Below, one piece after another: positions 1,863 through 19,844 of a stretch of DNA of 64,000 nucleotides. Source of the DNA: Streptomyces sp. DG1A-41 (GTDB lineage: Bacteria; Actinomycetota; Actinomycetes; Streptomycetales; Streptomycetaceae). Each line of letters begins with the position of its first letter. The first letter of the stretch is position 1. The notes below the pieces were generated by a model. The model was not told where the DNA came from. It saw only the letters and a list, made by a program, of their open reading frames with translations, and ran no database searches. The translations under genes and the position numbers were made by a program. The stretch spans positions 5,789,001 through 5,853,000 of the forward strand of contig NZ_CP146350.1 of the NCBI RefSeq assembly GCF_037055355.1, given 5' to 3'.

Positions 1863-1874
1863 CTACGCGCGTAG
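1863..1874. promoter_or_regulatory. Putative nucleoside-regulon operator, copy 1 (before add)
   Basis: A perfect 12-bp palindrome, CTACGCGCGTAG, 16 bases before the adenosine deaminase ATG. It overlaps the start of the AGGAG ribosome-binding sequence (1873-1877). The same 12-mer occurs twice more, before deoC and before purine nucleoside phosphorylase. The position at the 5' leader suggests repression. The binding protein is not known to me. Confidence 0.7.
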
Positions 1875-1890
1875 GAGTTAGAGTGCGGAA

Positions 1891-3048
1891 ATGACGAGCC
1901 AGACCATCGCGAACACCCCGACACCGGAGCAGATCCACCGGGCGCCCAAGGTTCTGCTGCACGACCACCTCGACGGCGGCCTGCGTCCCGCCACGATCGT
2001 CGAACTCGCCCACGCGACGGGCTACTCCCAGCTCCCCGAGACCGACCCGGAGAAACTCGGCGTCTGGTTCCGCGAGGCCGCCGACTCCGGTTCCCTGGAA
2101 CGGTACTTGGAGACCTTCTCGCACACCGTCGGCGTCATGCAGACCCGCGACGCCCTGGTCCGGATCGCCGCCGAGTGCGCCGAGGACCTCGCCGAGGACG
2201 GCGTCGTCTACGCCGAGGTGCGCTACGCCCCCGAGCAGCACCTGGAGGGCGGCCTGAGCCTCGAAGAGGTCGTCGAGGCAGTCAACGAGGGCTTCCGGGA
2301 AGGGGAGCGCCGGGCGCGGGAGAAGGGCCTGCGCATCCGCGTCGGGGCCCTGCTCACCGCCATGCGGCACGCGGCCCGCGCCCTGGAGATCGCCGAACTC
2401 GCCAACCGCCACCGGGACCTGGGAGTGGTGGGTTTCGACATTGCGGGTGCCGAGGCCGGCTACCCGCCCACCCGGCACCTGGACGCCTTCGAGTACCTCA
2501 AGCGCGAGAACAACCACTTCACCATCCACGCCGGCGAGGCCTTCGGGCTGCCCTCCATCTGGCAGGCCCTCCAGTGGTGCGGCGCCGACCGGCTCGGGCA
2601 CGGCGTGCGGATCATCGACGACATCCGGGTCCACGAGGACGGCAGCGTCGAACTCGGGCGGCTCGCCTCGTACGTCCGGGACAAGCGCATCCCCCTGGAG
2701 CTGTGCCCGAGCTCCAACCTCCAGACCGGGGCGGCGGCCTCGTACGCCGAGCACCCCATCGGACTGCTGCGCCGGCTGCACTTCCGCGCCACGGTGAACA
2801 CCGACAACCGCCTCATGTCCCACACCAGCATGAGCCGGGAATTCGAGCACCTGGTCGAGGCATTCGGTTACACGCTCGACGATATCCAATGGTTTTCTGT
2901 CAATGCTATGAAGTCGGCGTTCATTCCTTTCGATGAACGGCTGGCCATGATCAATGACGTGATCAAGCCCGGATATGCCGAGCTGAAATCCGAATGGCTG
3001 TTCCGGCAGACCGCCTCCACCAGCGGTTCTGCGGCCTCGGAGAACTGA
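1891..3048 (+). CDS. add: Adenosine deaminase
   Basis: This cytoplasmic zinc enzyme converts adenosine and deoxyadenosine to inosine and deoxyinosine, which the nucleoside phosphorylase at 19.0 kb can then split. It has 385 residues, normal for the family. Visible motifs are the metal site H24-D-H26-L-D-G, the active-site H213-A-G-E216, and N303-T-D305-N306, where D305 is the metal-ligand position. The usual second Asp of NTDD is Asn, a form I associate with actinobacterial members. AGGAG at 1873-1877 lies 13 bases before the ATG. The CTACGCGCGTAG palindrome overlaps this leader, so expression is probably tied to the other nucleoside genes. The last 60 codons use clearly more A/T-ending codons than the rest. 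Confidence 0.93.
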
Positions 3049-3189
3049 CCTGGGGTTCATTGGCACGCAGGGGATGCGGGCGGTGTTCACAAGCCGTCCA
3101 TATTTCTATGTTTGCGGCGGGTGGTGCCGCCTGATTACGGTCGTTGCACCGCTCACACACCCCGTCACCCCATGATGAGGACGCATTTC

Positions 3190-3543
3190 ATGAAGCAGTC
3201 TGCTGCCAGGACTCTCGGTGTCGCCGCCCTCGGTGCCGCCTTCGCCGCCGCCGGTGCGGGCGCCGCCAACGCCGCCCCGGCCCTCCCGGACACCGCTCAG
3301 ACGCTGGAGACCGTCACCCAGGCGCTTCCGGCGGAGCAGCCCTCCCGGACGCTGCCGGGCTCGGGTGAGGCGCTGGGTCAGGGGCAGACGGCGGCCGGTG
3401 CCGGTCTCGCCGCCGCCCAGCCCGTCGCCGAGCAGCTGCTCGCCGGGGGCTCGGCCGGGCCCGCCGCCGAGCTGCTCGGCGGGCTGCCGGTGCAGGGCCT
3501 GCCCACGCACGGCCTGCCGGTGAACGGCGTTCCGGTCGGCTGA
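3190..3543 (+). CDS. Small secreted protein, hypothetical
   Basis: A 117-residue protein with a clear signal peptide: MKQSAART, then a run of Ala/Gly/Val, and cleavage probably after NAA (about residue 31). The mature part is rich in Ala, Gly, Leu and Pro and ends in short repeats of the kind GLPVQGLPTHGLPVNGVPVG. ATG at 3190 is chosen because GAGGAC sits 7-12 bases upstream and the signal peptide starts there; a longer in-frame reading begins at 3112. Similar small exported proteins occur in many streptomycetes, but I know of no function. It ends in a strong terminator. Confidence 0.75.
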   Translation: MKQSAARTLGVAALGAAFAAAGAGAANAAPALPDTAQTLETVTQALPAEQPSRTLPGSGEALGQGQTAAGAGLAAAQPVAEQLLAGGSAGPAAELLGGLPVQGLPTHGLPVNGVPVG

Positions 3544-3565
3544 ACCTCCCGCCCGGGCGGAACAC

Positions 3566-3612
3566 ACACCGATGGGGCGCACCCCTGGACACAGGGTGCG
3601 CCCCATCGGTGT
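3566..3612. terminator. Strong bidirectional terminator
   Basis: A 19-bp perfect stem (3566-3584 with 3594-3612), 9-base loop and a following T run. It lies between the convergent secreted-protein gene and the PspC gene, so it can serve both. Confidence 0.9.
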
Positions 3613-3628
3613 TTTCGCGTACAGGCCG

Positions 3629-3841
3629 TTACCAGGCCGTCTGTGCCTTGTTCCGCACCTTGCTCTCCGAGGGCAGCAGGATCCACAGCGCGATGTACAG
3701 CAGGAACTGCGGGCCGGGCAGCAGGCACGAGACCAGGAAGATCACCCGCATCGTCGTCGCGGAGGTGCCGAAGCGCTGTGCCAGCGCGGCGCACACTCCG
3801 CCGATCATGCGGCCGTGGGTGGGGCGGGCGAGGCGGGACAT
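3629..3841 (-). CDS. PspC-domain membrane protein
   Basis: A 70-residue protein that is almost entirely one PspC domain: RLARPTHGRMIGGVCAALAQRFG, then a hydrophobic segment (about 32-57) that includes the LLPGPQFLLYIALWILLP pattern. PspC proteins sit in the inner membrane and in other bacteria take part in envelope-stress responses. Here it stands alone, with no PspA or PspB next to it. It is preceded, 65 bases away, by the VanZ gene on the same strand and could be co-transcribed with it. Confidence 0.85.
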   Translation of the reverse strand: MSRLARPTHGRMIGGVCAALAQRFGTSATTMRVIFLVSCLLPGPQFLLYIALWILLPSESKVRNKAQTAW

Positions 3842-3906
3842 GTGCGGCTCCTTCGTGAGGCGTCGGCGTGAGGTCTCTCGTCCGAGTACCCCATCTGCAC
3901 TCCACG

Positions 3907-4491
3907 CTACGGAGACGAAGGGGGCAAAGCGTCGCTCCAGGGGGCGATCCCGACCCTGGGAATCGTCGGGGTCCGACCCTCAGCCGGCTCCTGCGGGGCA
4001 AGCGGCGTACTGGTCAGACGCGCGAGAGTGCGGCGGCGCAGCCAGGAGCGGCCGGCCGGGACGAGCGCGAGATGCGCGAGGGCCACGCCCGCGGTGTTCA
4101 GGAACAGCGAGTCGACGTCGACGACCTGACCCGGAACGCCGGTCTGGAGCAGTTCGATGCCCAGCGACAGCAGGGCGCCGGCCGTGACGGTGCGCAGCAG
4201 GGACGCCAGGGGCGAGACGGTCAGTCTGCCGCTCACCATCGGCAGCAGCACGCCCAGCGGAGCGAGCAGCGCCAGCTTCTCGCCGATGTGACGGGCCGCC
4301 TCCGGCCATCCCAGGGCGAGATCGGCCCGGATGCCGTCGAACGGCCGCAGATTGGCGGGCATCACCCAGGGCACGTCCAGCGGCCGCAGCGTGAACCAGG
4401 CGACGAACGCGAGGTGTGCGACGAGGAGGACACCTCCTGTCACACGGATGCGGAACTCGGCGCTGCCGCCGATGGAGCCTTGACGCTGCAC
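3907..4491 (-). CDS. VanZ-family membrane protein
   Basis: A 194-residue protein with four hydrophobic segments and the VanZ pattern (FTLRPLDVPW, then EKLALLAPLGVLLP, then ELLQTGVPGQVVDVDSLFLN with its conserved acidic residues). VanZ proteins give low-level teicoplanin resistance in enterococci; most relatives have no known function. The C-terminal 50 residues are a polar tail. Translation starts at GTG 4491 behind AGGGGGG. It follows the afsQ operon on the same strand after 95 bases, and any functional link with it is unproven. Confidence 0.85.
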   Translation of the reverse strand: MQRQGSIGGSAEFRIRVTGGVLLVAHLAFVAWFTLRPLDVPWVMPANLRPFDGIRADLALGWPEAARHIGEKLALLAPLGVLLPMVSGRLTVSPLASLLRTVTAGALLSLGIELLQTGVPGQVVDVDSLFLNTAGVALAHLALVPAGRSWLRRRTLARLTSTPLAPQEPAEGRTPTIPRVGIAPWSDALPPSSP

Positions 4492-4586
4492 GCCCCCCTA
4501 GACGCGACCTCCGGCGGAATCGGTTCCGCGATACCGCCCGATACGCCGGTGAGGCATGCGCCACAACCCCTCGGAGCCCGGCCCGC

Positions 4587-5204
4587 TCACTCTCCGGCCA
4601 CGTCCCTGGACGGCGGTTCCTTGCTGCCCGGGCGGGCCCGCACCTCGTCGGTGCACTGCCAGCGGCGCGGGGGCTCGGCGCCGGGGCCGCCCAGGACCAC
4701 GGAGCCGTCGCCCTCGGCGGCCGCCGAGTCGGAGAAGGTGCAGACGATCTGGGCGAGGGCGTACGAGGTGAGGCTGTCCGGCGCCGTGCTCAGCCGCAGC
4801 GTGTCCTCCGGATCGCCGGGCCGGGGCCCGCTCACGGTGATGCCGCCGCGTACGTCCGTGCTGTCGCCGGCCTCCTTCTCGGCGGGCGACGGCGGCGTCG
4901 CGAGCTGGTTCAGCAGGCCCTGCGCCACCAGCATGCGCCGCCCGGAGTCGGCCGCGCCGTCCGGGACCCGTACGGTCCGGTCGACGGTCACCAGCGACGA
5001 CCCGCACAGCAGGAACACCTGCACCGGCAGCCCCCGGGCGGCCTGTGCCGACGCGTCCGGCTCGGCGAGCGAACAGCGCACCCGCGAGGGCGCGGGCCCG
5101 AAGTTCGTCGGCACCTCCGTGGCCCGGATCCCGCAGCCGGCGAGCAGCAGGGCGAGCACGGACACGGCACCGATCCGAGCCCCGGACACGAGACGTGTGG
5201 TCAT
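4587..5204 (-). CDS. Lipoprotein of the afsQ operon
   Basis: A 205-residue exported lipoprotein. The signal peptide ends in the lipobox LLAGC with the lipidated Cys at about residue 24, followed by a GerMN-like body (SLVTVDRTVRVPD, then NQLATPPSPAEKEAG). Its ATG overlaps the afsQ2 stop (TGATG), so the two are translationally coupled. In S. coelicolor the matching gene is the third of the afsQ cluster (SCO4905 by recall). The position suggests it is an envelope partner or input for the AfsQ2 sensor; that is inference from context. Confidence 0.85.
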   Translation of the reverse strand: MTTRLVSGARIGAVSVLALLLAGCGIRATEVPTNFGPAPSRVRCSLAEPDASAQAARGLPVQVFLLCGSSLVTVDRTVRVPDGAADSGRRMLVAQGLLNQLATPPSPAEKEAGDSTDVRGGITVSGPRPGDPEDTLRLSTAPDSLTSYALAQIVCTFSDSAAAEGDGSVVLGGPGAEPPRRWQCTDEVRARPGSKEPPSRDVAGE

Positions 5205-6841
5205 CAGGCGTCCCCCTTCGAGTCCTCGCCCTGGTCCTGGTCGGTGTCGTCCTCGTGCTTCCGCTCGCCTTCGGCGGGCTGCTCCCCCGGAGCGTACGTG
5301 TGGCGCGGGAGCCGCAGGGTGAACACCGCGCCCGAGTCGGGCGAGTTGGCCGCGGTGAGTTCGCCGCCGTGGATGTGGGCGTTCTCCAGGGCGATGGACA
5401 GGCCCAGGCCGCTGCCCTCGGAGCGCGGCCGGGAGGCGCTGGCCTTGTAGAAGCGGTCGAAGACGTGCGGCAGGACGTCCTCGGGGATGCCGGGCCCGTG
5501 GTCCCGCACCTCGATGACGATCGAGTCGTCCTCCTCACGGACCGACACCCGCACCGGGGAGCCGCCGTGCTTGAGCGCGTTGCCGATGAGGTTGGCCAGG
5601 ATGACGTCCAGACGACGCGGATCGAGGCGGGCGTGGATGCCGCGCTCCGCGTCCAGCTCGACCGCGTCCAGCCAGGCGCGGGCGTCGATGCACGCGGTGA
5701 TCTGGTCGGCGATGTCGACGTCGTCCAGGACGAGCCGGGCCGTGCCCGCGTCGAAGCGGGTGACCTCCATCAGGTTCTCGACCAGGTCGTTCAGCCGCCG
5801 CGTCTCGCTGACCACCAGCCGCACGGCCGGCTCGATCATCGGGTCCATGCTGCCGGTCTCCGCCTCCAGCTCCTCCTCCAGCACCTCCGTCACGGCGGTG
5901 ATGGCGGTGAGTGGCGTACGCAGCTCATGGCTCATGTCGGCCACGAACCGCCGGGACGCCTCGTCCCGCGCGGCCATGTCGGCGACCCGCTTCTCCAGCG
6001 CCTCGGCCGCCTTGTTGAACGTCCGGGACAGGTCGGCGAGTTCGTCGGTCCCGGACACCCTGAGCCGGGTGTCCAGCTTGCCCTCGCCGAGCCGCCGCGC
6101 GGCCGTCCCGAGCCGCTGCACCGGCTTCAGCACCGTCGTCGCCGCGGCCTGCGCGAGCAGCGCCGAGCCGATCAGCGCGAGCCCCGTGGCGATCCCCAGC
6201 GACCAGGCCAGCGAGTTGAGGTCCTTCGCCTCCGGCTCCAGCGACTTCAGCATGTAACCGGTCGGACCGCCGCCGATCACCCGCGTCCCGGCCACTAGGT
6301 ACGGCGTGTCGTGGTCTATGACCCGCTGCCAGTACAGGTGGTGCGGGTGCTTGTCGGCCCCGTCGGTCTTCTGCGTCTTGTTCACCGCCGTGCGCAGCGA
6401 GACCGGCACGTCCCGCAGCGAGAAGCCGCTCAGACCGCCGGAGCTGCCGTAGACGGTCCTGCCCTCGGCGTTGCTCGCGACCAGCAGCACGCTGAAGCGC
6501 TGGTCGCTGCCGGCCATCTGGCCCGCGGTGTGCTGGAGCTCGTCCTGCGTCGGATGCTCGGGCAGTGCGCCCGCCCGGTTCTGCATCTCCTGCTCGAAGT
6601 CGCGCAGCACGGCGTCCTGGGTGCGGGTGAGCACGGCCTCGCGGTTGAGCCAGTAGGCGATGCCGGACGCGGACACGGCGGCCGTCAGCGCCACCAGGCC
6701 GAAGACGACGACCAGCCTCAGCCGCAGGCTCGTGAAGCGCAGCCGCGACAGAACTCCCTTGCGCGCCGCGGTCCAGCCGCGGTCCCCCCTTGGTGGTGCC
6801 GCTGTGTCACTGAGGCGGATCCAGCCGGTAGCCGACACCAC
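5204..6841 (-). CDS. afsQ2: Sensor histidine kinase AfsQ2
   Basis: Membrane sensor of the AfsQ1/Q2 two-component system, which in S. coelicolor affects antibiotic production and morphology in a nitrogen-dependent manner. The 545-residue reading has a transmembrane helix at about 42-66, an extracytoplasmic sensor region, a second helix at about 215-238, a HAMP linker, and a HisKA motif DMSHELRTP with the phosphorylated His at residue 305. It also has the ATPase boxes LIGNALKHGG, DHGPGIPE and GSGLGLSI. The only usable starts are GTG codons at 6841/6838, which overlap afsQ1 by about 35 bases. The start is therefore less sure than the rest. Confidence 0.92.
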   Translation of the reverse strand: MVSATGWIRLSDTAAPPRGDRGWTAARKGVLSRLRFTSLRLRLVVVFGLVALTAAVSASGIAYWLNREAVLTRTQDAVLRDFEQEMQNRAGALPEHPTQDELQHTAGQMAGSDQRFSVLLVASNAEGRTVYGSSGGLSGFSLRDVPVSLRTAVNKTQKTDGADKHPHHLYWQRVIDHDTPYLVAGTRVIGGGPTGYMLKSLEPEAKDLNSLAWSLGIATGLALIGSALLAQAAATTVLKPVQRLGTAARRLGEGKLDTRLRVSGTDELADLSRTFNKAAEALEKRVADMAARDEASRRFVADMSHELRTPLTAITAVTEVLEEELEAETGSMDPMIEPAVRLVVSETRRLNDLVENLMEVTRFDAGTARLVLDDVDIADQITACIDARAWLDAVELDAERGIHARLDPRRLDVILANLIGNALKHGGSPVRVSVREEDDSIVIEVRDHGPGIPEDVLPHVFDRFYKASASRPRSEGSGLGLSIALENAHIHGGELTAANSPDSGAVFTLRLPRHTYAPGEQPAEGERKHEDDTDQDQGEDSKGDA

Positions 6842-7484
6842 GCACGGTACGGATCAGCGTCGGGGACGACGGCACGTCCTCGACCTTGGCGCGCAGCCGC
6901 TGGACACAGGCGTCCACGAGCCGTGAGTCGCCCAGGTAGTCGTGCTCCCACACCAGCCGCAGCAGCTGCTGCCGGGACAGCGCCTGCCCCGGCCGCCGGC
7001 TCAGCTCCAGCAGCAGCCGCAGCTCGGTCGGCGTGAGCTGGAGGTCCTCGCCGTTCTTCGTCACGGTCATCGCCGAGCGGTCGATGACGAGGCTGCCGAA
7101 CGTCGCCGCGTCGTTGGACTCCCGCTCGCCGCGCCGCAGCACGGCCCGGATCCGGGCGTCCAGTACCCGCCCCTGCACGGGCTTGACGACATAGTCGTCG
7201 GCGCCGGACTCCAGGCCGACGACCACGTCGATGTCGTCGCTGCGCGCGGTCAGCAGGATGATCGGCAACTGGTCCGTGCGCCGGATGCGCCGGCACACCT
7301 CGAACCCGTCGATGCCGGGCAGCATCACGTCCAGCACGATCAGATCCGGCCGCTGCTCGCGCAGCAGCTTCAGACCGTCCTCACCACTGGCAGCGGTCGC
7401 CACCCGGTGACCCTGGCGCGTCAGCGAGAGCTCCAGGGCCGTCCGGATGGCGTCGTCGTCCTCGATCAGCAACAGGGAAGGCAC
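6807..7484 (-). CDS. afsQ1: Response regulator AfsQ1
   Basis: OmpR/PhoB-class regulator of 225 residues when started at GTG 7484, the length I recall for AfsQ1. The receiver domain has the acidic pocket E8-D9-D10, the phosphorylated D52 (in LIVLDVMLPG), the T in LLTARSD and K in VVKPVQG. The C-terminal winged helix ends in RTVRGVGYRLDP. The frame stays open upstream to 7694, but that extension does not resemble a receiver domain. GTG 7490 is an alternative start. The gene is divergent from sigQ; the spacer has an AfsQ1-type box. Confidence 0.93.
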   Translation of the reverse strand: MPSLLLIEDDDAIRTALELSLTRQGHRVATAASGEDGLKLLREQRPDLIVLDVMLPGIDGFEVCRRIRRTDQLPIILLTARSDDIDVVVGLESGADDYVVKPVQGRVLDARIRAVLRRGERESNDAATFGSLVIDRSAMTVTKNGEDLQLTPTELRLLLELSRRPGQALSRQQLLRLVWEHDYLGDSRLVDACVQRLRAKVEDVPSSPTLIRTVRGVGYRLDPPQ

Positions 7485-7596
7485 GGGCACATTCTGGCCC
7501 ATGGAGGGGCCGGGGTTCGACCTGTGGGCCGATATGGGGCCCGCGCCTACCGCCGGCGCCTGTGCGCGAGCCGTGGCGGTCCTGTGGCCGACCCCT

Positions 7597-7612
7597 GTGA
7601 CAGGTCTGTGAC
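7597..7612. promoter_or_regulatory. AfsQ1 box between afsQ1 and sigQ
   Basis: GTGAC-AGGTCT-GTGAC is a direct repeat that fits the AfsQ1 recognition pattern GTnAC-n6-GTnAC as I remember it from S. coelicolor, where sigQ is a direct target. It is 109 bases before the sigQ start and 112 bases before the afsQ1 start. Confidence 0.75.
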
Positions 7613-7720
7613 AGTCGGCGGACACGGCCATGAAAGTGCGGCGGCAAGCTTTTCGCACAAGCAGGAAAGCCCGCCCGACCGGCGGGCCGCACACCGGAAG
7701 TCCACGACGGGGGGCGCGAG

Positions 7721-8476
7721 ATGAACACGCTGCACGGCACCAGCACCAGCGCAGTGATCACGCGTCTCCACGACGTGAACCGGGGTTCCGAGAAGTCCGG
7801 TGCCGTGAGCGGGCGGGGGTGCGCTCGCGGCACCGGGCGTCAGCACACCGCGTTCATGACGGTGGTTGACGCGCACACGGGGGACAGCAAGGGGACGGGG
7901 GCGGTTCACGGGGGAGCCGCGTACAGGGAGGACTCGGGGGAGCGCCGCTCGCTGTCGGAGGCGGAGTTCACCGCCTACGTCCAGGAGCGCCGCGCCTCCC
8001 TGTACGCCACCGCCTACCACCTCACCGGCGACCGCTTCGAGGCCGAGGACCTGCTCCAGAGCGCGCTGTTCTCGACGTACCGGGCGTGGGACCGGATCAG
8101 TGACAAGGCCGCGGTCGGCGGATACCTCCGCCGCACCATGACCAACCTGCACATCAGCGCCTGGCGGCGCCGCAAGCTCAACGAATACCCGACCGAGGAA
8201 CTGCCGGAGACGCCCGGCGACACGGACGCGATGCGCGGCACCGAACTGCGCGCGGTCCTGTGGCAGGCGCTGGCCCGGCTGCCCGAGCTCCAGCGCACCA
8301 TGCTGGTCCTGCGCTACTACGAGGGCCGCACGGACCCGGAGATCGCGGAGATCCTCGACATCAGTGTCGGCACGGTGAAGTCCAGCATCTGGCGGTCGCT
8401 CCGCCGGCTGCGCGAGGACGAGGTCCTCAGCTTCGGCCGTGACGAGGAGGACGCCTTCGGCGAGCTCGTGGCCTGA
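7721..8476 (+). CDS. sigQ: RNA polymerase sigma factor SigQ
   Basis: ECF-type sigma factor of 251 residues. An N-terminal extension of about 80 residues precedes region 2 (EFTAYVQERRASLYATAYHLTGDRFEAEDLLQ, with YRAWDRI and YLRRTMTNLHISAWRRRK). Region 4 (LPELQRTMLVLRYYEGRTDPEIAEILDISVGTVKSSIWRSLRRLR) lies at about 185-235. It belongs to the SigE-like group typical of actinobacteria. ATG 7721 follows GGGGGGCGCGAG. It is divergent from afsQ1/afsQ2, which control it in S. coelicolor, with the AfsQ1 box in the shared spacer. Confidence 0.92.
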   Translation: MNTLHGTSTSAVITRLHDVNRGSEKSGAVSGRGCARGTGRQHTAFMTVVDAHTGDSKGTGAVHGGAAYREDSGERRSLSEAEFTAYVQERRASLYATAYHLTGDRFEAEDLLQSALFSTYRAWDRISDKAAVGGYLRRTMTNLHISAWRRRKLNEYPTEELPETPGDTDAMRGTELRAVLWQALARLPELQRTMLVLRYYEGRTDPEIAEILDISVGTVKSSIWRSLRRLREDEVLSFGRDEEDAFGELVA

Positions 8477-8588
8477 AGGTTGGGGGGAAGCACCAAAGAG
8501 GCCCCACGGGGGACTGGAACCGGGGCCCACGGGGGAACTGCGGAGACGCTGGGGGGCGTCTCCTCAGGACAGTGGGGGACACGGGGGA

Positions 8589-8632
8589 GCGGGACTGGAG
8601 GGCCGGGGGGTCCGTCCAGTCCCGCATTTTTT
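8589..8632. terminator. Terminator after sigQ
   Basis: An 11-bp perfect stem (8589-8599 with 8615-8625) followed by ATTTTTT. It separates sigQ from the convergent kinase gene. The 110 bases before it hold three imperfect copies of a CACGGGGGA motif and no gene. Confidence 0.85.
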
Positions 8633-8638
8633 CGCTGC

Positions 8639-9298
8639 CTAGGCCGCCGTACCGAGACTCGCGCACCGGCCCGCCGCCGCGGCCGCCAGCCGGCCCATCG
8701 CCTCGTCGCGGTCGCAGGCGTACGCGCCCAGCGCCGTCTGACGGGCGACGATCGAGCGCTCCTGACGCATCAGGCGCCAACCGCGGCGCAGCAGGAACGG
8801 CACCGACTTGCGGCCCTCCTTCAGATCCCGCAGGAAGCGGCGGCGGAACGTCTTCACCGGGCCGCGGCTCAGGCACAGCGCGTCGGCGAGGACGCCGAGC
8901 TCCCGGCAGCGCGTGACGATCTCCGCGGCGAAGATGCCCTCCGCGATGAACAGCGGGGTCCGCCCGATGTCCACCGTCTCCGTGCCGGTGCGGGCGCTCA
9001 GCGCGATGTCGTAGACGGGGACGTCCGTACGGCCCGTGCGGCACAGCCGGGTGATCGCGGCTATGGCAGTGTCCGCGTCCCACGACTCCGGATGGTCCCA
9101 GTCGATGTCCGAACTCCCCGCCACCAGCGGCAGCGTCGGGTCGTCGCCCTCCTTGTAGAAGTCGTCGAGCCGCAGCACCGGGAGGCCGGAGCGGGCCGCG
9201 AGGAGGGACTTGCCGGAGCCGGAGGGGCCGCAGAGCAGCACGACTCGCGTCGGTAGGGGCAGAGGGGAACTCACGGGACACCAGTGTGACGCATCCAT
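8639..9298 (-). CDS. P-loop kinase, uridine-kinase-like
   Basis: A 219-residue nucleotide-binding protein. Walker A is GPSGSGKS (about residues 24-31), followed by LRLDDFYKEGDDP and DWDHPESWD, the signature pair of uridine/phosphoribulokinase-type kinases, and LFIAEGIFAAEI. It probably phosphorylates a nucleoside or similar small molecule. Whether it is a true uridine kinase cannot be settled from sequence alone. ATG 9298 is used; GTG 9274 and GTG 9343 are in frame and no good ribosome-binding sequence decides between them. Confidence 0.85.
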   Translation of the reverse strand: MDASHWCPVSSPLPLPTRVVLLCGPSGSGKSLLAARSGLPVLRLDDFYKEGDDPTLPLVAGSSDIDWDHPESWDADTAIAAITRLCRTGRTDVPVYDIALSARTGTETVDIGRTPLFIAEGIFAAEIVTRCRELGVLADALCLSRGPVKTFRRRFLRDLKEGRKSVPFLLRRGWRLMRQERSIVARQTALGAYACDRDEAMGRLAAAAAGRCASLGTAA

Positions 9299-9482
9299 CG
9301 GGGGCCGTACGACCCCGCAGGGCGCCTTTGATGCGCGCGTCACATCTCAACTGCTCTTTGTGTCGCATCGATTACCCAGAGTGCCGGTAGGCGGTAGCGA
9401 TGGCCCGGCTCTCAAAGTCGACGCGCTCGACAACGGTGTCGGCACCCAGCTCGCCGATTTCAAGCCGATGACGCCCCAGGCG

Positions 9483-11617: not shown

Positions 11618-11659
11618 GGGTCTCCCCTGGTGGTGTACGACGTATCTCGGTGCGTACAA

Positions 11660-11679
11660 CGTACACATCAATGTGTACG
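11660..11679. promoter_or_regulatory. Putative TetR operator
   Basis: The inverted repeat CGTACACAT-CA-ATGTGTACG (9-bp perfect arms) lies in the 114-base spacer between the flavin reductase/pump unit and the TetR gene. A further half-site-like GTGTACGA is at 11633. The position between divergent promoters is the usual one for a TetR repressor. Confidence 0.7.
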
Positions 11680-11731
11680 ACGTCTACTGGCGATACGCTG
11701 TACACGACAGTCGAGGGAGAGGAGCCGGGTC

Positions 11732-12475: not shown

Positions 12476-12498
12476 CCGGGAGGCGTGCGCGCACGAGA

Positions 12499-12548
12499 GA
12501 AGCCCCGGCCCTCCCGGACGGAGAAGGGACGGGGCTTCCGCTGTGAGG
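12499..12548. terminator. Terminator between TetR and aldehyde dehydrogenase genes
   Basis: A 9-bp perfect outer stem (12499-12507 with 12540-12548) with further partial pairing inside, located between convergent genes. There is no T run, as often in Streptomyces. Confidence 0.7.
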
Positions 12549-12553
12549 GGTGC

Positions 12554-13465
12554 CTAGTACGAGGAACCCGACGCGCCCAGTGACCCCGTGGGGTGCCAGA
12601 CCGTTTTCGTCTCCAGGAACGCCGTCATGCGGTCGATGCCGGGAGTCTCCGCGTAATCCACAGGCTGTGGACGCAGGACGCGCTTGAGGTTGTCGGCCGC
12701 GGCGATCTCCAGTTCCTTCGCCAGGGTCTCGTCGGCGCCCGCGAGGTCGATCGCGTTGACGTCCTGGTGGGCTGCCAGCGGAGCCGCGATCTCCGCCGTG
12801 CGGCCCGAGAGGACGTTGACCACACCGCCGGGGACGTCGGAGGTGGCCAGGACCTCGGCGAGGGACAGGGCGGGGAGCGGGGACTTCTCGCTGGCCACCA
12901 CGACCGCCGTGTTGCCGGTGGCGATCACCGGGGCGACGACCGACACCAGGCCCAGGAAGGACGACTCCTGGGGCGCCAGGACCGCGACCACGCCCGTCGG
13001 CTCGGGGGAGGACAGGTTGAAGAACGGGCCCGCGACCGGGTTGCCGCCGCCGACCACCTGGGCGATCTTGTCGGTCCAGCCCGCGTACCAGACCCAACGG
13101 TCGATCGTGGCGTCCACGACCGCCGCCGCCTTGGACTTCGACAGGCCCTCGGCGTCGGCCACCTCACGCGTGAACTGGTCGCGGCGGCCCTCCAGCATCT
13201 CCGCGACGCGGTAGAGGACCTGGCCGCGGTTGTACGCCGTCGCGCCGGACCAGCCGCCGAACGCCTTGCGGGCGGCCACTACGGCGTCACGGGCGTCCTT
13301 GCGGGAGGACAGGGGCGCGTTCGCCAGCCACTTGCCCTTGCCCGCCGCGTCAGCGGCTGATGTCTTCGTGGTCACCTCGTACACCCGGCCGCTCTCGGAA
13401 CGCGGGAACTTGCCGCCCACGTACAGCTTGTAGGTCTTGAGGACACTGAGTCGCGAGTCAGACAT
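12554..13465 (-). CDS. Half-length aldehyde dehydrogenase-family protein
   Basis: A 303-residue protein covering only the N-terminal NAD-binding half of the aldehyde dehydrogenase fold (normal members are about 480-500). It has KLYVGGKFPRSESGRVY, ARKAFGGWSGATAYNRGQVLYR, and a Rossmann-like part GVVAVLAPQESSFLGLVSVVAPVIATGNTAVV. The usual PWNFP motif is lost (PQESS) and the catalytic Cys/Glu region is absent. It overlaps the full-length aldehyde dehydrogenase gene by 8 bases, so it is made from the same mRNA and may be a partner subunit rather than an enzyme. It shows no internal stop, so it is probably not a decaying gene. Confidence 0.82.
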   Translation of the reverse strand: MSDSRLSVLKTYKLYVGGKFPRSESGRVYEVTTKTSAADAAGKGKWLANAPLSSRKDARDAVVAARKAFGGWSGATAYNRGQVLYRVAEMLEGRRDQFTREVADAEGLSKSKAAAVVDATIDRWVWYAGWTDKIAQVVGGGNPVAGPFFNLSSPEPTGVVAVLAPQESSFLGLVSVVAPVIATGNTAVVVASEKSPLPALSLAEVLATSDVPGGVVNVLSGRTAEIAAPLAAHQDVNAIDLAGADETLAKELEIAAADNLKRVLRPQPVDYAETPGIDRMTAFLETKTVWHPTGSLGASGSSY

Positions 13466-14894
13466 CGAGGTACGCCTCCAGGCCGTGGCGGCCGCCCTCG
13501 CGGCCGAAGCCCGACTCCTTGTAGCCGCCGAACGGCGAGGTCGGGTCGAACTTGTTGAACGTGTTGGACCAGACGACGCCCGCGCGGAGCCTGTTCGCGA
13601 CCGCCAGGATGCGGGAGCCCTTCTCCGTCCAGATGCCGGCGGAGAGGCCGTACGGCGTGTTGTTGGCCTTGGCGACCGCCTCGTCCGGGGTGCGGAAGGT
13701 CAGGACCGACAGCACCGGGCCGAAGATCTCGTCCCGGGCGATGGTGTGCGCCTGGGTGACGTTCGTGAACAGCGTCGGGGCGAACCAGTAGCCGCTCTCC
13801 GGCAGTTCGCAGGCCGGGGACCAGCGCTCGGCGCCCTCCGCCTCGCCCTGCTCGACGAGGGAGGTGATGCGCGTGAGCTGTTCCTCGGAGTTGATCGCGC
13901 CGATGTCCGTGTTCTTGTCGAGCGGGTCGCCCAGGCGGAGCGTCGACAGGCGCCGCTTCAGGGACTCCAGGAGGTCCTCCTGGATCGACTCCTGGACCAG
14001 CAGGCGGCTGCCCGCGCAGCAGACCTGGCCCTGGTTGAAGAAGATGCCGTTCACGATGCCCTCGACGGCCTGGTCGATCGGGGCATCGTCGAAGACGATG
14101 TTGGCGCCCTTGCCGCCCAGTTCGAGCGTGACCTTCTTGCGGGTGCCGGCGACCGTGCGGGCGATCTCCTTGCCGACGGCCGTGGAGCCGGTGAAGGCGA
14201 CCTTGTTCACGTCCGGGTGGGCGACCAGCGCCGCGCCCGCGCCGCCGTAGCCCGGGAGGATGTTGACCACGCCCTTCGGCAGGCCCGCCTGGCGGCAGAT
14301 GTCCGCGAAGAAGAGCGCCGAGAGAGGCGTGGTCTCCGCCGGCTTCAGGACGACCGTGTTGCCGGTGGCGAGCGCGGGCGCGATCTTCCACGCCAGCATC
14401 AGCAGCGGGAAGTTCCAGGGGATGACCTGGCCCGCCACGCCCAGCGGCCGCGGGTTCGCGCCGAAGCCGGCGTGGTCGAGCTTGTCGGCCCAGCCCGCGT
14501 AGTAGAAGAAGTGCGCCGCGACCAGGGGAAGGTCCGCGTCGCGGGTCTCCTTGATCGGCTTGCCGTTGTCGAGGGTTTCGAGGACGGCGAGCTCGCGGGA
14601 GCGCTCCTGGATGATCCGCGCGATGCGGAACAGGTACTTGGCGCGCTCCGAGCCGGGCAGCGCCGACCACTTCTCGAAGGCCTTGCGGGCGGCCTGTACC
14701 GCGCGGTCGACGTCCGCCTCGCCGGCCTGGGCGACCTCGGAGAGCACCTCCTCGGTGCTCGGCGAGACCGTCTTGAAGACCTTGCCGTCGGCCGCCTCCA
14801 CGAACTCGCCGTCGATGAACAGGCCGTACGAGGGAGCGATGTCGACGATCGAGCGCGACTCGAGGGCCGGGGCGTATGCGAATACCGAAGCCAT
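13458..14894 (-). CDS. NAD-dependent aldehyde dehydrogenase
   Basis: A full-length 478-residue enzyme that oxidises an aldehyde to an acid. Motifs include PWNFPLLMLAWKIAPALATGN, the cofactor loop FTGSTAVGKEI, the general base in ELGGKGANIV, the nucleophile in FFNQGQVCCAGS, and EIFGPVLSV. Its ATG is 5 bases after the deoC stop and it overlaps the half-length paralogue by 8 bases. DeoC releases acetaldehyde, so this is the obvious candidate to convert it to acetate; the substrate is inferred from context. Confidence 0.9.
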   Translation of the reverse strand: MASVFAYAPALESRSIVDIAPSYGLFIDGEFVEAADGKVFKTVSPSTEEVLSEVAQAGEADVDRAVQAARKAFEKWSALPGSERAKYLFRIARIIQERSRELAVLETLDNGKPIKETRDADLPLVAAHFFYYAGWADKLDHAGFGANPRPLGVAGQVIPWNFPLLMLAWKIAPALATGNTVVLKPAETTPLSALFFADICRQAGLPKGVVNILPGYGGAGAALVAHPDVNKVAFTGSTAVGKEIARTVAGTRKKVTLELGGKGANIVFDDAPIDQAVEGIVNGIFFNQGQVCCAGSRLLVQESIQEDLLESLKRRLSTLRLGDPLDKNTDIGAINSEEQLTRITSLVEQGEAEGAERWSPACELPESGYWFAPTLFTNVTQAHTIARDEIFGPVLSVLTFRTPDEAVAKANNTPYGLSAGIWTEKGSRILAVANRLRAGVVWSNTFNKFDPTSPFGGYKESGFGREGGRHGLEAYLDV

Positions 14895-14899
14895 GGTGA

Positions 14900-15862
14900 T
14901 CAGTCCACCGTCACGTAGTCGGGGCCGGAGTAGCGGCCGGTGGCCAGCTTCTGGCGCTGCATCAGCAGGTCGTTCAGCAGCGACGAGGCGCCGAAGCGGA
15001 ACCAGTGGTTGTCCAGCCAGTCCTCGCCCGCGGTCTCGTTGACCAGGACGAGGAACTTGATGGCGTCCTTCGAGGTGCGGATGCCGCCGGCCGGCTTCAC
15101 GCCGACCTGGATGCCGGTCTGCGCGCGGAAGTCACGTACCGCCTCCAGCATGAGGAGCGTGTTCGCCGGGGTCGCGTTGACGGCGACCTTTCCGGTGGAC
15201 GTCTTGATGAAGTCCGCGCCCGCCAGCATCCCGAGCCAGCTCGCGCGGCGGATGTTGTCGTACGTCGACAGCTCGCCCGTCTCGAAGATGACCTTCAGGC
15301 GCGCGGACGTGCCGCAGGCCTCCTTCACGGCGGTGATCTCGTCGTACACCTTCAAGTATCGGCCCGAGAGGAACGCGCCGCGGTCGATGACCATGTCGAT
15401 CTCGTCGGCGCCCGCGGCGACGGCCTCGCGGACGTCGGCCAGCTTGACGGTGAGCGGCGCGCGCCCGGCCGGGAACGCCGTGGCGACGGAGGCGACCTTC
15501 ACGCCGGAGCCGGCGACTGCCTCCTTGGCCACGGCCACCATGTCGGGGTAGACGCAGACCGCCGCCGTCGTGGGCGCCGTACGGTCGGTCGGGTCGGGCC
15601 GGACCGCCTTCGCGCCGAGCGCCCGGACCTTGCCCGGGGTGTCCGCGCCTTCCAGCGTCGTCAGGTCGACCATCGAGATGGCGAGGTCGATGGCGTACGC
15701 CTTCGCGGTCGTCTTGATCGAACGGGTACCGAGCGAGGCCGCACGGCCCTCCAGCCCGACCGCGTCGACGCCGGGGAGCCCGTGGAGGAAGCGGCGCAGC
15801 GCGCTGTCGGACGCGATGACGTCCTTGAGGGGGTGAGCTGCGGTGAGTGCAGAACTGGGCAT
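14900..15862 (-). CDS. deoC: Deoxyribose-phosphate aldolase
   Basis: This enzyme cleaves 2-deoxyribose 5-phosphate to glyceraldehyde 3-phosphate and acetaldehyde, the last step of deoxynucleoside breakdown. It is a TIM-barrel class I aldolase, 320 residues from ATG 15862. Visible motifs are VCVYPDMV, the KVASVATAFPAGR strand, the LKVIFETGEL strand, the Schiff-base lysine strand FIKTSTGK, and GVKPAGGIRT. It is longer than the 220-250-residue E. coli-type enzymes and resembles the long form found in actinobacteria and animals. GTG 15868 is an alternative start. The operator CTACGCGCGTAG lies 19 bases upstream, and two aldehyde dehydrogenase genes follow in the same operon. Confidence 0.92.
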   Translation of the reverse strand: MPSSALTAAHPLKDVIASDSALRRFLHGLPGVDAVGLEGRAASLGTRSIKTTAKAYAIDLAISMVDLTTLEGADTPGKVRALGAKAVRPDPTDRTAPTTAAVCVYPDMVAVAKEAVAGSGVKVASVATAFPAGRAPLTVKLADVREAVAAGADEIDMVIDRGAFLSGRYLKVYDEITAVKEACGTSARLKVIFETGELSTYDNIRRASWLGMLAGADFIKTSTGKVAVNATPANTLLMLEAVRDFRAQTGIQVGVKPAGGIRTSKDAIKFLVLVNETAGEDWLDNHWFRFGASSLLNDLLMQRQKLATGRYSGPDYVTVD

Positions 15863-15881
15863 GGTCACCAGACGAGCATAT

Positions 15882-15893
15882 CTACGCGCGTAG
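15882..15893. promoter_or_regulatory. Putative nucleoside-regulon operator, copy 2 (before deoC)
   Basis: Perfect palindrome CTACGCGCGTAG, flanked by AT on the left, 19 bases upstream of the deoC ATG on the minus strand. It lies in the 102-base spacer shared with the PH-domain gene, so it could affect both. Confidence 0.7.
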
Positions 15894-15964
15894 CGGCTGT
15901 ACAGCCCCCGGCTTTGCTCGGGTGGGGTTGAGGTGGTCGGCAACAGGTCCGGCAGAATCGAGGC

Positions 15965-16669
15965 ATGACGAGCCCCGAACCCCAGTCACCAGCGCCGCAG
16001 CCTGCGGAGCCCGAGTCCGAGGACCGGGTGTACCGGTCGGTTCCGGCCATCGCCGGTGGCGTGCTGCTGCTTGCCGTCGCCGGGTGGCTCGGCATCGACG
16101 CGGTGATCTCGGGCGAGGGGCGTACGCCGTGGATGGCGCTCGCCGTGCTGATCCTGATCGTGCCGCTGGTCGTCGCCTTCACGCTGCGGCCCGCGGTGTA
16201 CGCGGGCGACGACCGGCTGCGCATCCGCAACCCGTTCCGCGTCATCGTGCTGCCCTGGGGGCGGATCGCCTCGCTGAAGTCCGCCTACACGAACGAGGTC
16301 CTCACCGAGTCCGGCGCGAAGTACCAGCTGTGGGCCGTGCCCGTCTCGCTGCGCGCCCGCAAGAAGGCCGCGCGGCGTGAGATGCGGGCGACCGCGCAGG
16401 CGCGGCGGGAGATGGGCCGGGACGAGGGGCGCGGCAGTGCGCTCGGGATGCGGGCGGGGCTGGGCGGCGGCCTCGGCGGCGGGCCCGCGTCCGACGGGCT
16501 CGTGCGGGCGGAGACCGACCGGATCATGGATGAGCTGCGGGGGCTGCACGAGGCGCGGCACCGGGCGGACACGGCGCAGGGGGAGGTGACCGTGCGGTGG
16601 GCCTACGAGGTGGTGGGGCCGGCGGTTGCGGGGGCGGTGTTGGTGGTGATTCTTCTGGTGGTGGGTTGA
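15965..16669 (+). CDS. Membrane protein with bacterial PH-like domain
   Basis: A 234-residue protein with a Pro/Glu-rich N-terminus, two transmembrane helices (about 28-44 and 54-74), a PH-like stretch (RPAVYAGDDRLRIRNPFRVIVLPWGRIASLKSAYTNEVLTESGAKYQLWAVPV) and a basic Arg/Ala-rich region. A third hydrophobic segment sits at the very C-terminus (about 213-233). Related actinobacterial PH-domain membrane proteins have no defined job. It is divergent from deoC and shares its operator region, but nothing in the protein points to nucleosides. Confidence 0.8.
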   Translation: MTSPEPQSPAPQPAEPESEDRVYRSVPAIAGGVLLLAVAGWLGIDAVISGEGRTPWMALAVLILIVPLVVAFTLRPAVYAGDDRLRIRNPFRVIVLPWGRIASLKSAYTNEVLTESGAKYQLWAVPVSLRARKKAARREMRATAQARREMGRDEGRGSALGMRAGLGGGLGGGPASDGLVRAETDRIMDELRGLHEARHRADTAQGEVTVRWAYEVVGPAVAGAVLVVILLVVG

Positions 16670-16938
16670 CCGCGTGGTAAGTCCGCCGGGTGGGGCGACC
16701 GGGCGTGGATGACCGGGTTGTGGAGGCGATCCCGGGCAGGGGCCCTCGGTCTTGTGGGGGCGGCCCTGGGGCGGGGCTCTTGGCTTCGGGGCGCTCGGCC
16801 CCAGGTTGAGCTCTTGGCTTCGGGGGGTGTCCGGCCCCGGGGCGGAGCCCTCGGCTCTGTGCGGGTGCCCGGCCCCGGGGCGGCGTGCTCGGCTTCGTCG
16901 GGGCCGGCTTGATCTCCGTGCCCGGGTTCGGCGTGCGG

Positions 16939-18612
16939 CTACGAGAACCGCGCGTACGGTCGGATACCTGCCGCCGTGGACAGGTCGCGCTTGATCGACT
17001 CCAGTAGGTCCGTCGCCCGGGCACGGGCGTCGGGGAGGTCGGCGTGGGTGGCGACCGGCAGCACGACCTCCAGGTAGCACTTCAGCTTCGGCTCCGTGCC
17101 GCTCGGGCGGACGATCACCCGGGCGCCGTCGAGGGTGTAGCGCAGGCCGTCGGTGGGCGGGAGGGTGGCCGTGCCCCGGGTCAGGTCGTCGGTGCGGGTG
17201 ATCGGCAGGCCGGCGAGTTCGGTCGGGGGCTGTTCGCGCAGGCGGCGCATCGCGGCCGTGATGAGGGAGAGGTCCTCGACGCGGACCGAGAGCTGGTCCG
17301 TCGCGTGCAGGCCGTGTTCCACGGCCAGGTCGTCGAGGAGGTCGAGGAGGGTGCGGCCCTCCTCCTTGAGCTGCGACGCCAGTTCCGTGATCAGGAGCGC
17401 TGCCGTGATGCCGTCCTTGTCGCGTACGCCGTCCGGGTCGACGCAGTAGCCGAGGGCCTCCTCGTATCCGTAGCGCAGGCCCTCGGCTCGGGCGATCCAC
17501 TTGAAGCCGGTGAGCGTCTCGACGTGGGGGAGGCCCGCCTTCTCGGCGATACGGCCGAGGAGGGAGGACGAGACGATCGACTCCGCGAAGGTCCCGGTCG
17601 CTCCGCGGCGGACCAGGTGGGCGGCGAGGAGGGCGCCGACCTCGTCACCGCGGAGCATGCGCCAGTCGTCGCCGTCCTGGACGGCGACGGCGCAGCGGTC
17701 CGCGTCCGGGTCGTTGGCGATGATCAGGTCGGGGGCGGGGGTGGTCGCGCGGGCCTTCGCGAACGCCAGGTCCATCGCGCCGGGCTCCTCCGGGTTGGGG
17801 AACGCGACGGTCGGGAAGTCCGGGTCGGGGTCGGCCTGCTCCGTGACGAGGGCCGGTTCCGGGAAGCCGGCGCGGGCGAAGGCGGCGAGGAGGACGTCCT
17901 TGCCGACGCCGTGCATCGCCGTGTACACCGTGCGGGCGGTGCGCGGGGAATCCTTGGCGAGTACGGCGTCGGTGCGGGCGAGGTAGGCGTCGAGGACGCT
18001 GTCGTCGAGGGTGTCCCAGCCTTCGGTGGGGCGCCGGACGGTGGTGAGGGACGGGACGGCGGCGATCTCTGCCGCGATGTCGATGTCCGCCGGGGGGACG
18101 ATCTGGGAGCCGTCGCCGAGGTACACCTTGTAGCCGTTGTCGCGGGGCGGGTTGTGGCTGGCGGTGACCTCCACGCCGGCGACCGCGCCGAGGTGCCTTA
18201 TCGCGAAGGCGAGGACGGGGGTGGGGAGGGGGCGGGGGAGCACGGCCGCGCGGAGGCCGGCGCCGGTCATGACGGCGGCGGTGTCGCGGGCGAAGTCGTG
18301 CGACTTGTGGCGGGCGTCATAGCCGATGACGACGAGACCGGCGCCCCCTTCCCTCTGGGAGAAACCCTGCTTCTTGAGGTACGCGGCGAGGCCGGCGGCC
18401 GCACGGATGACGACCGAGCTGTTCATGCGCATGGGGCCGGCGCCGAGTTCGCCGCGGAGGCCGGCCGTGCCGAACTGGAGGGTGCCGCTGAAGCGGGCGG
18501 CGAGCTCGGCGTGGTCCTGGGCGTCGATGAGGCGGGCGAGCTCGGTGCGGGTCTCCGGGTCGGGGTCCTCGGTGAGCCACGCCTGGGCCTGTGCGATGAG
18601 TTCGTCGTGCAC
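16939..18612 (-). CDS. Phosphosugar mutase (alpha-D-phosphohexomutase family), probable phosphopentomutase role
   Basis: A 557-residue enzyme from GTG 18612. It has the catalytic phosphoserine loop EVTASHNPPRDNGYK, the metal loop NDPDADRCAV, the sugar-specificity loop YEEALGY, and the phosphate clamp RPSGTEPKLK. The subgroup is that of PGM2-type mutases, many of which move phosphate on ribose or deoxyribose as well as hexoses. It lies directly downstream of purine nucleoside phosphorylase on the same strand, so converting (deoxy)ribose 1-phosphate to the 5-phosphate for DeoC is the best guess. It is often labelled phosphomannomutase. A TTG start at 18654 is also in frame; GGAGAGG upstream of GTG 18612 favours the shorter form. 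Confidence 0.88.
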   Translation of the reverse strand: MHDELIAQAQAWLTEDPDPETRTELARLIDAQDHAELAARFSGTLQFGTAGLRGELGAGPMRMNSSVVIRAAAGLAAYLKKQGFSQREGGAGLVVIGYDARHKSHDFARDTAAVMTGAGLRAAVLPRPLPTPVLAFAIRHLGAVAGVEVTASHNPPRDNGYKVYLGDGSQIVPPADIDIAAEIAAVPSLTTVRRPTEGWDTLDDSVLDAYLARTDAVLAKDSPRTARTVYTAMHGVGKDVLLAAFARAGFPEPALVTEQADPDPDFPTVAFPNPEEPGAMDLAFAKARATTPAPDLIIANDPDADRCAVAVQDGDDWRMLRGDEVGALLAAHLVRRGATGTFAESIVSSSLLGRIAEKAGLPHVETLTGFKWIARAEGLRYGYEEALGYCVDPDGVRDKDGITAALLITELASQLKEEGRTLLDLLDDLAVEHGLHATDQLSVRVEDLSLITAAMRRLREQPPTELAGLPITRTDDLTRGTATLPPTDGLRYTLDGARVIVRPSGTEPKLKCYLEVVLPVATHADLPDARARATDLLESIKRDLSTAAGIRPYARFS

Positions 18613-18879
18613 GGTCTGTGTCAGCCTCTCCGTTGTGGTGTGTTGCGGGTGCAAGCGAGTGCCTGCGGCGGCCTGTGCAGCTTCGGTGGGGCTGTGTCGC
18701 GCGCGGGTGGTGGGTCGGGGCCGCGCCGGGGGTGTCCGTCCTCGGAACGGCGCGATGGGGTCGCGTACCGACTAACCGTCCGTTGACGCGCCAACCGCCG
18801 CGGGCGGACACCCCCAGACACATCCCCTTCTCGCCGTGCGCGGGTGCGGGCGCGCCTCGGCTCAGCTGCCTGCGCCGAG

Positions 18880-18950
18880 CTGCGGGCAGTCGTGCCGCTC
18901 GGGGCGGCACTGTCCCAAAGAAGCGGCACCCCGCTCCGCCGGGTTGCGGA
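18880..18950 (-). repeat. Dispersed 3'-end repeat, copy A
   Basis: Read on the minus strand, this carries the block AGCGGGGTGCCGCTTCTTTG and then a hairpin-forming GCCGC...GCGGC and ACGACTGCCCGCAG. Close copies are at 29641-29706 and 32761-32831, and a weaker one is at 23183-23250. It lies immediately downstream of the nucleoside phosphorylase stop, in the sense direction. The rest of the 370-base spacer (18613-18982) shows no gene. Confidence 0.75.
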
Positions 18951-18982
18951 CCCACCCGGCCGCAGTCCCAGCGCCGGGTTGC

Positions 18983-19807
18983 CTACAGGCGCCCCAGGAC
19001 CTGGGCGAGCAGTGAACCCATGCGGGTCGCCGAATCCCGGCCCGCCTGGAGAACCTCCTCGTGGTTCAGCGGCTCTCCCGTCATCCCCGCCGCCAGATTC
19101 GTCACCAGGGAAATGCCCAGAACCTCCGCACCCGCCTCGCGCGCCGCGATCGCCTCCAGAACCGTCGACATCCCCACCAGGTCCGCACCGATGACCCGGG
19201 CCATACGGATCTCGGCCGGAGTCTCGTAGTGCGGGCCGGGGAACTGGGCGTAGACGCCCTCCTCCAGGGTGGGGTCGACCTCCTTGCACAGCGCCCGCAG
19301 GCGCGGGGAGTAGAGGTCCGTGAGGTCGACGAAGTTGGCGCCGATGATCGGGGACGTCGCCGTGAGGTTGATGTGGTCGCTGATCAGGACCGGCTGGCCG
19401 GGGCGCATGCCCTCGCGCAGGCCGCCGCAGCCGTTGGTGAGGACGATCGTCTTGCAGCCGGCCGACACGGCGGTACGGACGCCGTGGGCGACGGCGGCCA
19501 CGCCGCGGCCCTCGTAGTAGTGCGTGCGGCCGAGGAAGACGAGGGCGCGCTTGTTGCCGATCCGGTACGAGCGGATCTTGCCTCCGTGGCCCTCGACCGC
19601 CGGCGGCGGGAAGCCGGGCAGCTCGGTGACCTGGAGTTCGGCCTCGGGGGCGCCGAGGGCGTCCACGGCCGGGGCCCAGCCGGAGCCCATCACGAGGGCG
19701 ACGTCGTGGGTCTCGGCGCCCGTGAGTTCGCGCAGGCGGGCGGCGGCGGCGTCGGCGGCGGAGTGGGGGTCGCCCTGGATGTCGTCCGGAAGAAGAGATG
19801 CGTTCAC
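18983..19807 (-). CDS. Purine nucleoside phosphorylase
   Basis: This enzyme splits inosine, guanosine and their deoxy forms with phosphate to give the base and (deoxy)ribose 1-phosphate. It has 274 residues and is of the trimeric class: [12 protein letters not shown] (phosphate loop), [56 protein letters not shown], and the base-binding region near [19 protein letters not shown]. Start at GTG 19807 is chosen because the protein begins there in homologues as I recall them; the frame extends to 20032. The operator palindrome is 25 bases upstream. The mutase gene follows on the same strand. Confidence 0.92.
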
Positions 19808-19832
19808 GCGCACGAGGGTAACCGGTGATGGC

Positions 19833-19844
19833 CTACGCGCGTAG
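19833..19844. promoter_or_regulatory. Putative nucleoside-regulon operator, copy 3 (before nucleoside phosphorylase)
   Basis: Perfect palindrome CTACGCGCGTAG, 25 bases upstream of the GTG start on the minus strand. It is identical over all 12 bases to the copies before add and deoC, and sits in the 92-base spacer after the GGCT-like gene. Confidence 0.7.

Follow-up and report, generated by a model that had tools for sequence, protein, structure and literature searches.

What could place one and the same short palindrome directly before three genes of nucleoside breakdown that lie apart from each other on a Streptomyces chromosome? The question is raised by a 64-kb stretch of the Streptomyces sp. 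DG1A-41 genome (contig NZ_CP146350.1, positions 5,789,001 to 5,853,000 of the forward strand; "the window" hereafter), in which the 12-bp palindrome CTACGCGCGTAG precedes add, deoC, and pnp, encoding adenosine deaminase, deoxyribose-phosphate aldolase, and purine-nucleoside phosphorylase, respectively. From comparative sequence analysis, we consider it likely that CTACGCGCGTAG is the operator of one Streptomycetaceae repressor that controls genes for the scavenging of nucleotides and nucleosides. A single type of site recurs, in one species after another, at promoters of genes that are linked in function, which is the pattern of a repressor-operator regulon.

Copies of the palindrome in the window and in the genome

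The three exact copies (Table 1) are the only ones in the window, where 0.002-0.004 copies are expected under Markov models of orders 1-4. The original prediction had described these three copies and no other, had placed them 16, 19, and 25 bases before the annotated starts of add, deoC, and pnp, and had judged a chance origin very unlikely. All of this was confirmed, as were the three gene names, each protein scoring above the cut-off of an NCBIfam equivalog model. Allowing up to two mismatches adds a single place (20064-20075, GTACGCGCGTAC), which lies within a gamma-glutamyl-cyclotransferase-like open reading frame (ORF), and the four matches so obtained are an ordinary number (3.95 expected). 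By number, only the exact copies stand out; the near-copies do not.

The whole chromosome (8,991,014 bases) holds five exact copies, versus one of the reversed 12-mer. It had been anticipated that a genome-wide search would return further nucleoside genes, and that hits scattered without regard to gene function would speak against a regulon. Four of the five copies precede nucleoside genes, the fourth being located 11.6 kb to the left of the window, before the operon of a nucleoside-type ABC transporter, with Bmp/PnrA-like binding proteins upstream, followed by an ATPase, two permeases, cytidine deaminase (cdd), and thymidine phosphorylase (deoA).

The promoters of add, deoC, and pnp each have a box of the form TANNNT 6-7 bases 5′ of the start codon, which is the layout of leaderless Streptomyces promoters, and the palindrome spans the interval from the predicted −35 region to just upstream of the predicted −10 box. 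The boxes themselves are conserved in the alignment profiles, as TA.agT in the add windows, as a nearly invariant ATATGCT in 92 site-bearing deoC windows, and as TAccCT in 108 site-bearing pnp windows. Judging from the distance between its −10 box and the ATG, the add transcript is probably leaderless. Translation of deoC probably begins not at the ATG at 15862 but at an in-frame GTG at 15868, which is 13 bases away from the site, because each base of GTGACCATG is conserved in more than 90% of the family's 92 distinct deoC windows. As the sites fall on predicted core promoters, they are best read as sites of repression: a dimer bound to the palindrome at these three genes would exclude RNA polymerase.

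Table 1. Putative operators, predicted promoter elements, and genes in the window
Feature	Position	Strand	Basis
Putative palindromic operator before add	1863..1874		exact 12-mer
Predicted −10 box TAGAGT of add	1879..1884	+	sequence; 6 bases 5′ of ATG
add, adenosine deaminase	1891..3048	+	PF00962 2.6e-105; NCBIfam PRK09358.1-2 642 bits, cut-off 412
Second aldehyde-dehydrogenase-family gene, overlaps the first	12554..13465	−	PF00171 1.4e-39
Aldehyde dehydrogenase directly downstream of deoC	13458..14894	−	PF00171 6.1e-168; 5-bp gap to deoC
deoC, deoxyribose-phosphate aldolase	14900..15868	−	TIGR00126 181 bits, cut-off 117; start GTG 15868 or ATG 15862
Predicted −10 box TATGCT of deoC	15875..15880	−	sequence
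Putative palindromic operator before deoC	15882..15893		exact 12-mer
Phosphohexomutase-family gene downstream of pnp	16939..18654	−	PGM_PMM I-IV domains; below every NCBIfam cut-off
pnp, purine-nucleoside phosphorylase	18983..19807	−	TIGR01698 345.5 bits, cut-off 302.6
Predicted −10 box TACCCT of pnp	19815..19820	−	sequence; 7 bases 5′ of GTG 19807
Putative palindromic operator before pnp	19833..19844		exact 12-mer
DeoR-family regulator, candidate only	22048..23010	+	PF08220 + PF00455

The first of the two aldehyde dehydrogenase genes is predicted to belong to the deoC operon, where its product would consume acetaldehyde, and the phosphohexomutase-family gene possibly encodes a phosphopentomutase. 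In the transporter operon, a good ribosome site (AGGAG; L016:7450-7520) precedes the ATPase gene, but the codon at the expected start reads only ATC in the DG1A-41 genome and close relatives, and ATA in one relative (L065); translation begins either at a non-AUG codon or at GTG 7516 of L016.

Conservation within and beyond the family

The exact 12-mer was present in all 61 sampled Streptomyces genomes, at 2-6 copies each (231 in total, versus 38 for the reversed 12-mer), and in 80 of the 81 Streptomycetaceae genomes, covering 16 of 17 genera. A lack of conservation of the site before orthologous genes in related species had been named as a refutation, and within the family the site proved conserved: among 80 named Streptomyces loci that were fetched by their Pnp protein, the exact site precedes pnp in all 80, and it precedes deoC in all 65 that have a deoC start within reach. 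The sites before add, deoC, and pnp were each found in 10/10 Streptomyces genomes with four or five copies, and the transporter (abcA) site in the fetched regions of eight, although this set is biased, having been picked for copy number.

Genera with few exact copies gave a similar result, with a site within one mismatch before deoC in 10/10 and before pnp in 10/11 cases, and with an exact site at 8/8 add promoters, which come from loci that were not fetched by the site. In the one genome with no exact copy (G362), deoC is preceded by CTACGCGAGTAG, and pnp by a form with two mismatches. The site is kept less strictly at the transporter than at add, deoC, and pnp. Three genomes of genus g115 possess a different transporter (47-49% identity), and a one-mismatch copy is found there before the binding-protein gene that heads that operon. 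Genome G381, whose transporter has no site, has a one-mismatch copy, CAACGCGCGTAG, between cdd and deoA (L179:8794-8805).

In alignment profiles the 12 bp are nearly invariant and the flanks vary, add and abcA being the clearest cases; the exact site is found in each of the 29 distinct add windows, and little is conserved farther upstream. These profiles hold site-bearing promoters only, and many of the add windows come from loci fetched by the site. Conservation of the site far exceeds that of most of the sequence around it, and its occurrence is almost limited to Streptomycetaceae. The fetched loci, some of which overlap, contain 106 instances of the site, 89 of which could be assigned to add, deoC, pnp, or abcA. 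The remaining 17 comprise seven from outside the family, one place seen twice (L005 and L017), two that lie where contigs end, next to pnp and the transporter (L032 and L038), and six others, which are described in this text or have no clear context (L039, L041, L044, L075, L076, and L088). In two genomes, an exact palindrome falls on codons 3-7 of the gene for a second adenosine-deaminase paralogue (L029:1501-1512 and L087:1501-1512). Three genomes of genus g127 (L192, L197, and L198) have an exact site ~39-48 bases before a gene for a secreted protein (..RVLFDNTKG.. or similar), the Pfam matches of which, determined for L192, are below gathering scores.

Outside the family the picture is different. 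In a sample of the class, the exact 12-mer was found in 28/28 genomes of the same genus versus 10/268 of other genera, and no site within two mismatches was present at non-family pnp or purS promoters (0/24 each). The regulon therefore looks like a Streptomycetaceae innovation, unless the operator elsewhere differs beyond recognition. Seven non-family loci with an exact copy, one from each of seven of these ten genomes (L068-L074), matched none of the four target genes, and several of these copies lie in coding sequence or GC-rich repeats; G146 has two further copies, which were left aside together with those in G168, G219, and G299.

Near-sites and the reach of the regulon

Three one-mismatch places in the DG1A-41 genome lie before nt5, ncs2, and purSQL. 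The first of these genes encodes a secreted protein with metallophosphoesterase and 5′-nucleotidase domains, whose best NCBIfam match, a 2′,3′-cyclic-nucleotide phosphodiesterase/3′-nucleotidase, is below cut-off, and the second an NCS2-type purine permease (PF00860). Within 220 bases upstream, a site with at most two mismatches was found at 29/30 nt5, 28/30 ncs2, and 30/30 purS genes in Streptomyces loci. The 30 nt5 loci stem from 27 genomes, since three of the 30 genomes have no nt5 and second copies in three genomes were included; the only locus lacking the site is one partial match. Five control 12-mers, examined over the same 119 promoters, gave one match within one mismatch and five within two, out of 595. 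In the DG1A-41 genome and some relatives, tandem near-sites, TCTACGCGCGTTA-TCTACGCGCGTCG, stand before nt5 (L009:1475-1512), and in some genomes an exact site is also found before the gene of a HAD phosphatase (L041 and L075) or of a metallophosphoesterase that has an NDLHG motif (L076).

The original prediction of a purine (deoxy)nucleoside regulon under one regulator holds up as to a shared operator, and was too narrow as to its scope, which takes in cdd and deoA as well as the conserved near-sites at nt5, the permease, and purSQL. In the mechanism that we propose, one protein would read all of these sites and act as a repressor. The enzymes under the site would form a route that starts with extracellular nucleotide and ends in free base, glyceraldehyde-3-phosphate, and acetaldehyde, and from these enzymes we infer that the inducer may be a nucleoside or a (deoxy)ribose phosphate. 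The scavenging genes would be shut off until a product of the pathway releases the repressor, and the site at purSQL would link one operon of purine synthesis to the same signal. More tentatively, nucleic-acid salvage in Streptomycetaceae may be under a master repressor of the family's own, with an almost unchanging 12-bp operator, that falls outside every described regulon. If so, this repressor would tie the degradation of extracellular nucleotides, such as those set free by lysing mycelium, to nucleoside import, recovery of sugar and base, purine uptake, and the part of purine synthesis that purSQL carries out.

Several observations weigh against a single repressor acting through CTACGCGCGTAG. 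Copies within one mismatch are not enriched genome-wide (27 versus 26 for the reversed pattern), and near-copies are therefore meaningful only where they are conserved; the DG1A-41 genome has 22 one-mismatch places, nine of them inside ORFs, and conservation was checked for the three at nt5, ncs2, and purSQL. The fifth exact copy (L017:9672-9683), 16 bases 5′ of an ATG that may start the gene of a membrane protein lacking any Pfam match, has no clear link to nucleoside genes and is possibly a chance copy. In the genera with few exact copies, none of seven abcA promoters carries the site, three of them belonging to orthologues at 74-81% identity and four to the different transporter of 47-49%. 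No site within two mismatches precedes purF, purM, or purC of the DG1A-41 genome, or any of 29 Streptomyces purN genes in the test that was applied to purS. At the permease, the site lies anywhere from 38 to 216 bases before the start, and with such variation in position some sites may act differently. Finally, available passages of one study report that WblC binds and represses the deoC (SCO4914) promoter in Streptomyces coelicolor (S. coelicolor; PMC7157823), and other regulators therefore act there. An exact site does occur at purN, confirmed by NCBIfam and followed by a purH-like gene, in genome G402 (L205:7294-7305), and before PurN-like starts, judged by eye, in G417 and G367. Given its absence from the Streptomyces promoters, we rejected purN as a general member of the regulon.

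Candidate regulators and related systems

Which protein would read the site? The nearest candidate, put forward at the outset, is the DeoR-type protein encoded at 22.0 kb, which would sense a (deoxy)ribose phosphate and whose S. coelicolor orthologue we take to be SCO4920. We found nothing that supports it directly and some evidence against it, and regard this assignment as doubtful. An orthologue is present in 81/81 family genomes at no less than 73% identity (listed paralogues, 36-46%), and residues 1-60, which hold the helix-turn-helix (HTH), are identical in 52 of 54 family loci. Where a fetched region of the family shows both genes, deoR and pnp are ~2-3 kb apart (~10 kb in G381), although gene order is conserved generally, and this synteny is therefore weak evidence. 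The sensor domain matches a solved structure named as a deoxyribose operon repressor (7L6L, E 1e-7), and the HTH_DeoR and DeoRC domains exceed the Pfam gathering scores (53.6 and 168 bits), which is uninformative as to the site bound. The protein scores 73 bits, however, against the 244-bit cut-off of the model for DeoR equivalogs of Escherichia coli (E. coli; NCBIfam PRK10681), and its own promoter has no site within two mismatches in any of 79 cases, so that autoregulation through the 12-mer was rejected.

Genomes from outside the family argue in the same direction. Non-family DeoR orthologues (47-69% identity) keep nearly the same recognition helix, yet only one of 25 genomes that encode them has the 12-mer (G168, one copy), and none of 20 such neighbourhoods showed add, deoC, pnp, or deoA. 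What lies near these orthologues instead are sugar-type ABC ATPase genes (L141-L144 and L147), a glycoside hydrolase (L141), and an aldose epimerase (L145). TGATCGG is common to four of the non-family deoR intergenic regions; CTACGCG/CGCGTAG was found in one of 20 upstream regions (L155). With no target genes beside them and no exact site, we rejected these orthologues as carriers of the same regulon. Within the family, the region upstream of deoR (21880-22047) is strongly conserved in 43 Streptomycetaceae loci, without the 12-mer; it mostly contains TATACCAC or TATAGCAC, followed by a long leader ending in ...GTTACTGTCAGTTTC-GTG or a close variant.

No other candidate for the regulator stood out. 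In G402, a TetR gene is divergent from deoC with the site between them; this arrangement is not general among the g127 genomes examined, and the candidate was therefore dropped. Another possibility is that the protein on the site is an activator, or has a dual role, with activation at some promoters and repression at others. Such a protein would suit purSQL and the permease, where the site is located at the predicted −35 or farther upstream. The site lies between the predicted −35 and −10 at add and deoC, however, and directly after a −10-like CAGAAT at nt5, both unusual for an activator, and we consider activation improbable. A MarR-type gene beside the purine permease is a still poorer prospect. 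MarR proteins often read short palindromes, and the gene is within reach in 27 of 30 Streptomyces permease loci (in one case at only ~40% identity), but this link is general synteny only, and its own upstream region has no site within one mismatch. That the repeat arose by chance, or acts at the level of RNA, is barely credible: palindromes can form hairpins and near-sites are not enriched genome-wide, but conservation throughout the family, as compared with controls, contradicts this notion, and at add, deoC, and pnp the site is upstream of the predicted transcript start.

A repressor that binds CTACGCGCGTAG thus remains our preferred reading, and none of the open-access literature matches listed, which leave subscription literature outside their scope, describes such an operator or a nucleoside/purine regulon. 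The palindrome is likewise not described in the available parts of PMC3224704, PMC4848846, PMC7244524, PMC3293853, or PMC7157823. As far as the passages at hand go, SCO4914 appears in the ArgR and WblC studies, SCO4920 in a network inference and a catabolite-repression list, and SCO4901 in a Pho study; an argR mutant has less DeoC protein (PMC3293853), with no connection made there to the palindrome. WblC/WhiB7 shares the deoC promoter with our site, being listed as its repressor, but is an antibiotic-response regulator that the passages seen do not tie to the palindrome or to the other targets (PMC7157823). XdhR of S. coelicolor, a (p)ppGpp-responsive repressor of xdhABC that belongs to the TetR family according to a title cited in a review, resembles the proposed protein as a Streptomyces repressor of purine-salvage genes, although a nucleoside-catabolism regulon is not described for it in the sections available (PMC6627660). 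NupR of Bacillus thuringiensis is, by description rather than by operator, a comparable regulator of nucleoside uptake; as portrayed in the part available, it is a GntR/HutC protein that mainly concerns nucleoside transport (PMC9430930). Available portions of the literature also link purine metabolism to antibiotic production in Streptomyces (reviewed in PMC6627660), and discuss adenosine deaminase together with the recycling of nucleic acids from lysed cells (PMC7244524).

The site supplies a ready-made putative operator for a Streptomyces nucleoside/purine regulon, and one short DNA would be enough to fish out the regulator. Two regulatory systems of other bacteria invite comparison. The PurR regulon of Bacillus joins purine biosynthesis with purine uptake, and genes of both kinds share the site here too, but the operator is another one, and of the purS, purF, purM, purC, and purN genes checked in Streptomyces, only purS carries it. 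In the DeoR and CytR regulons of E. coli, the nucleoside-catabolism functions under common negative control are deoxyribose-phosphate aldolase, thymidine phosphorylase, purine-nucleoside phosphorylase, cytidine deaminase, and nucleoside uptake. The site here precedes deoC, pnp, and the transporter-cdd-deoA operon, and a protein bound to it may bring these functions together in a similar way. The operators differ in both sequence and length, that of E. coli DeoR being the 16-bp TGTTAGAATTCTAACA and the site here the 12-bp CTACGCGCGTAG, and in Streptomyces purSQL and a secreted nucleotidase-like gene are added to the set.

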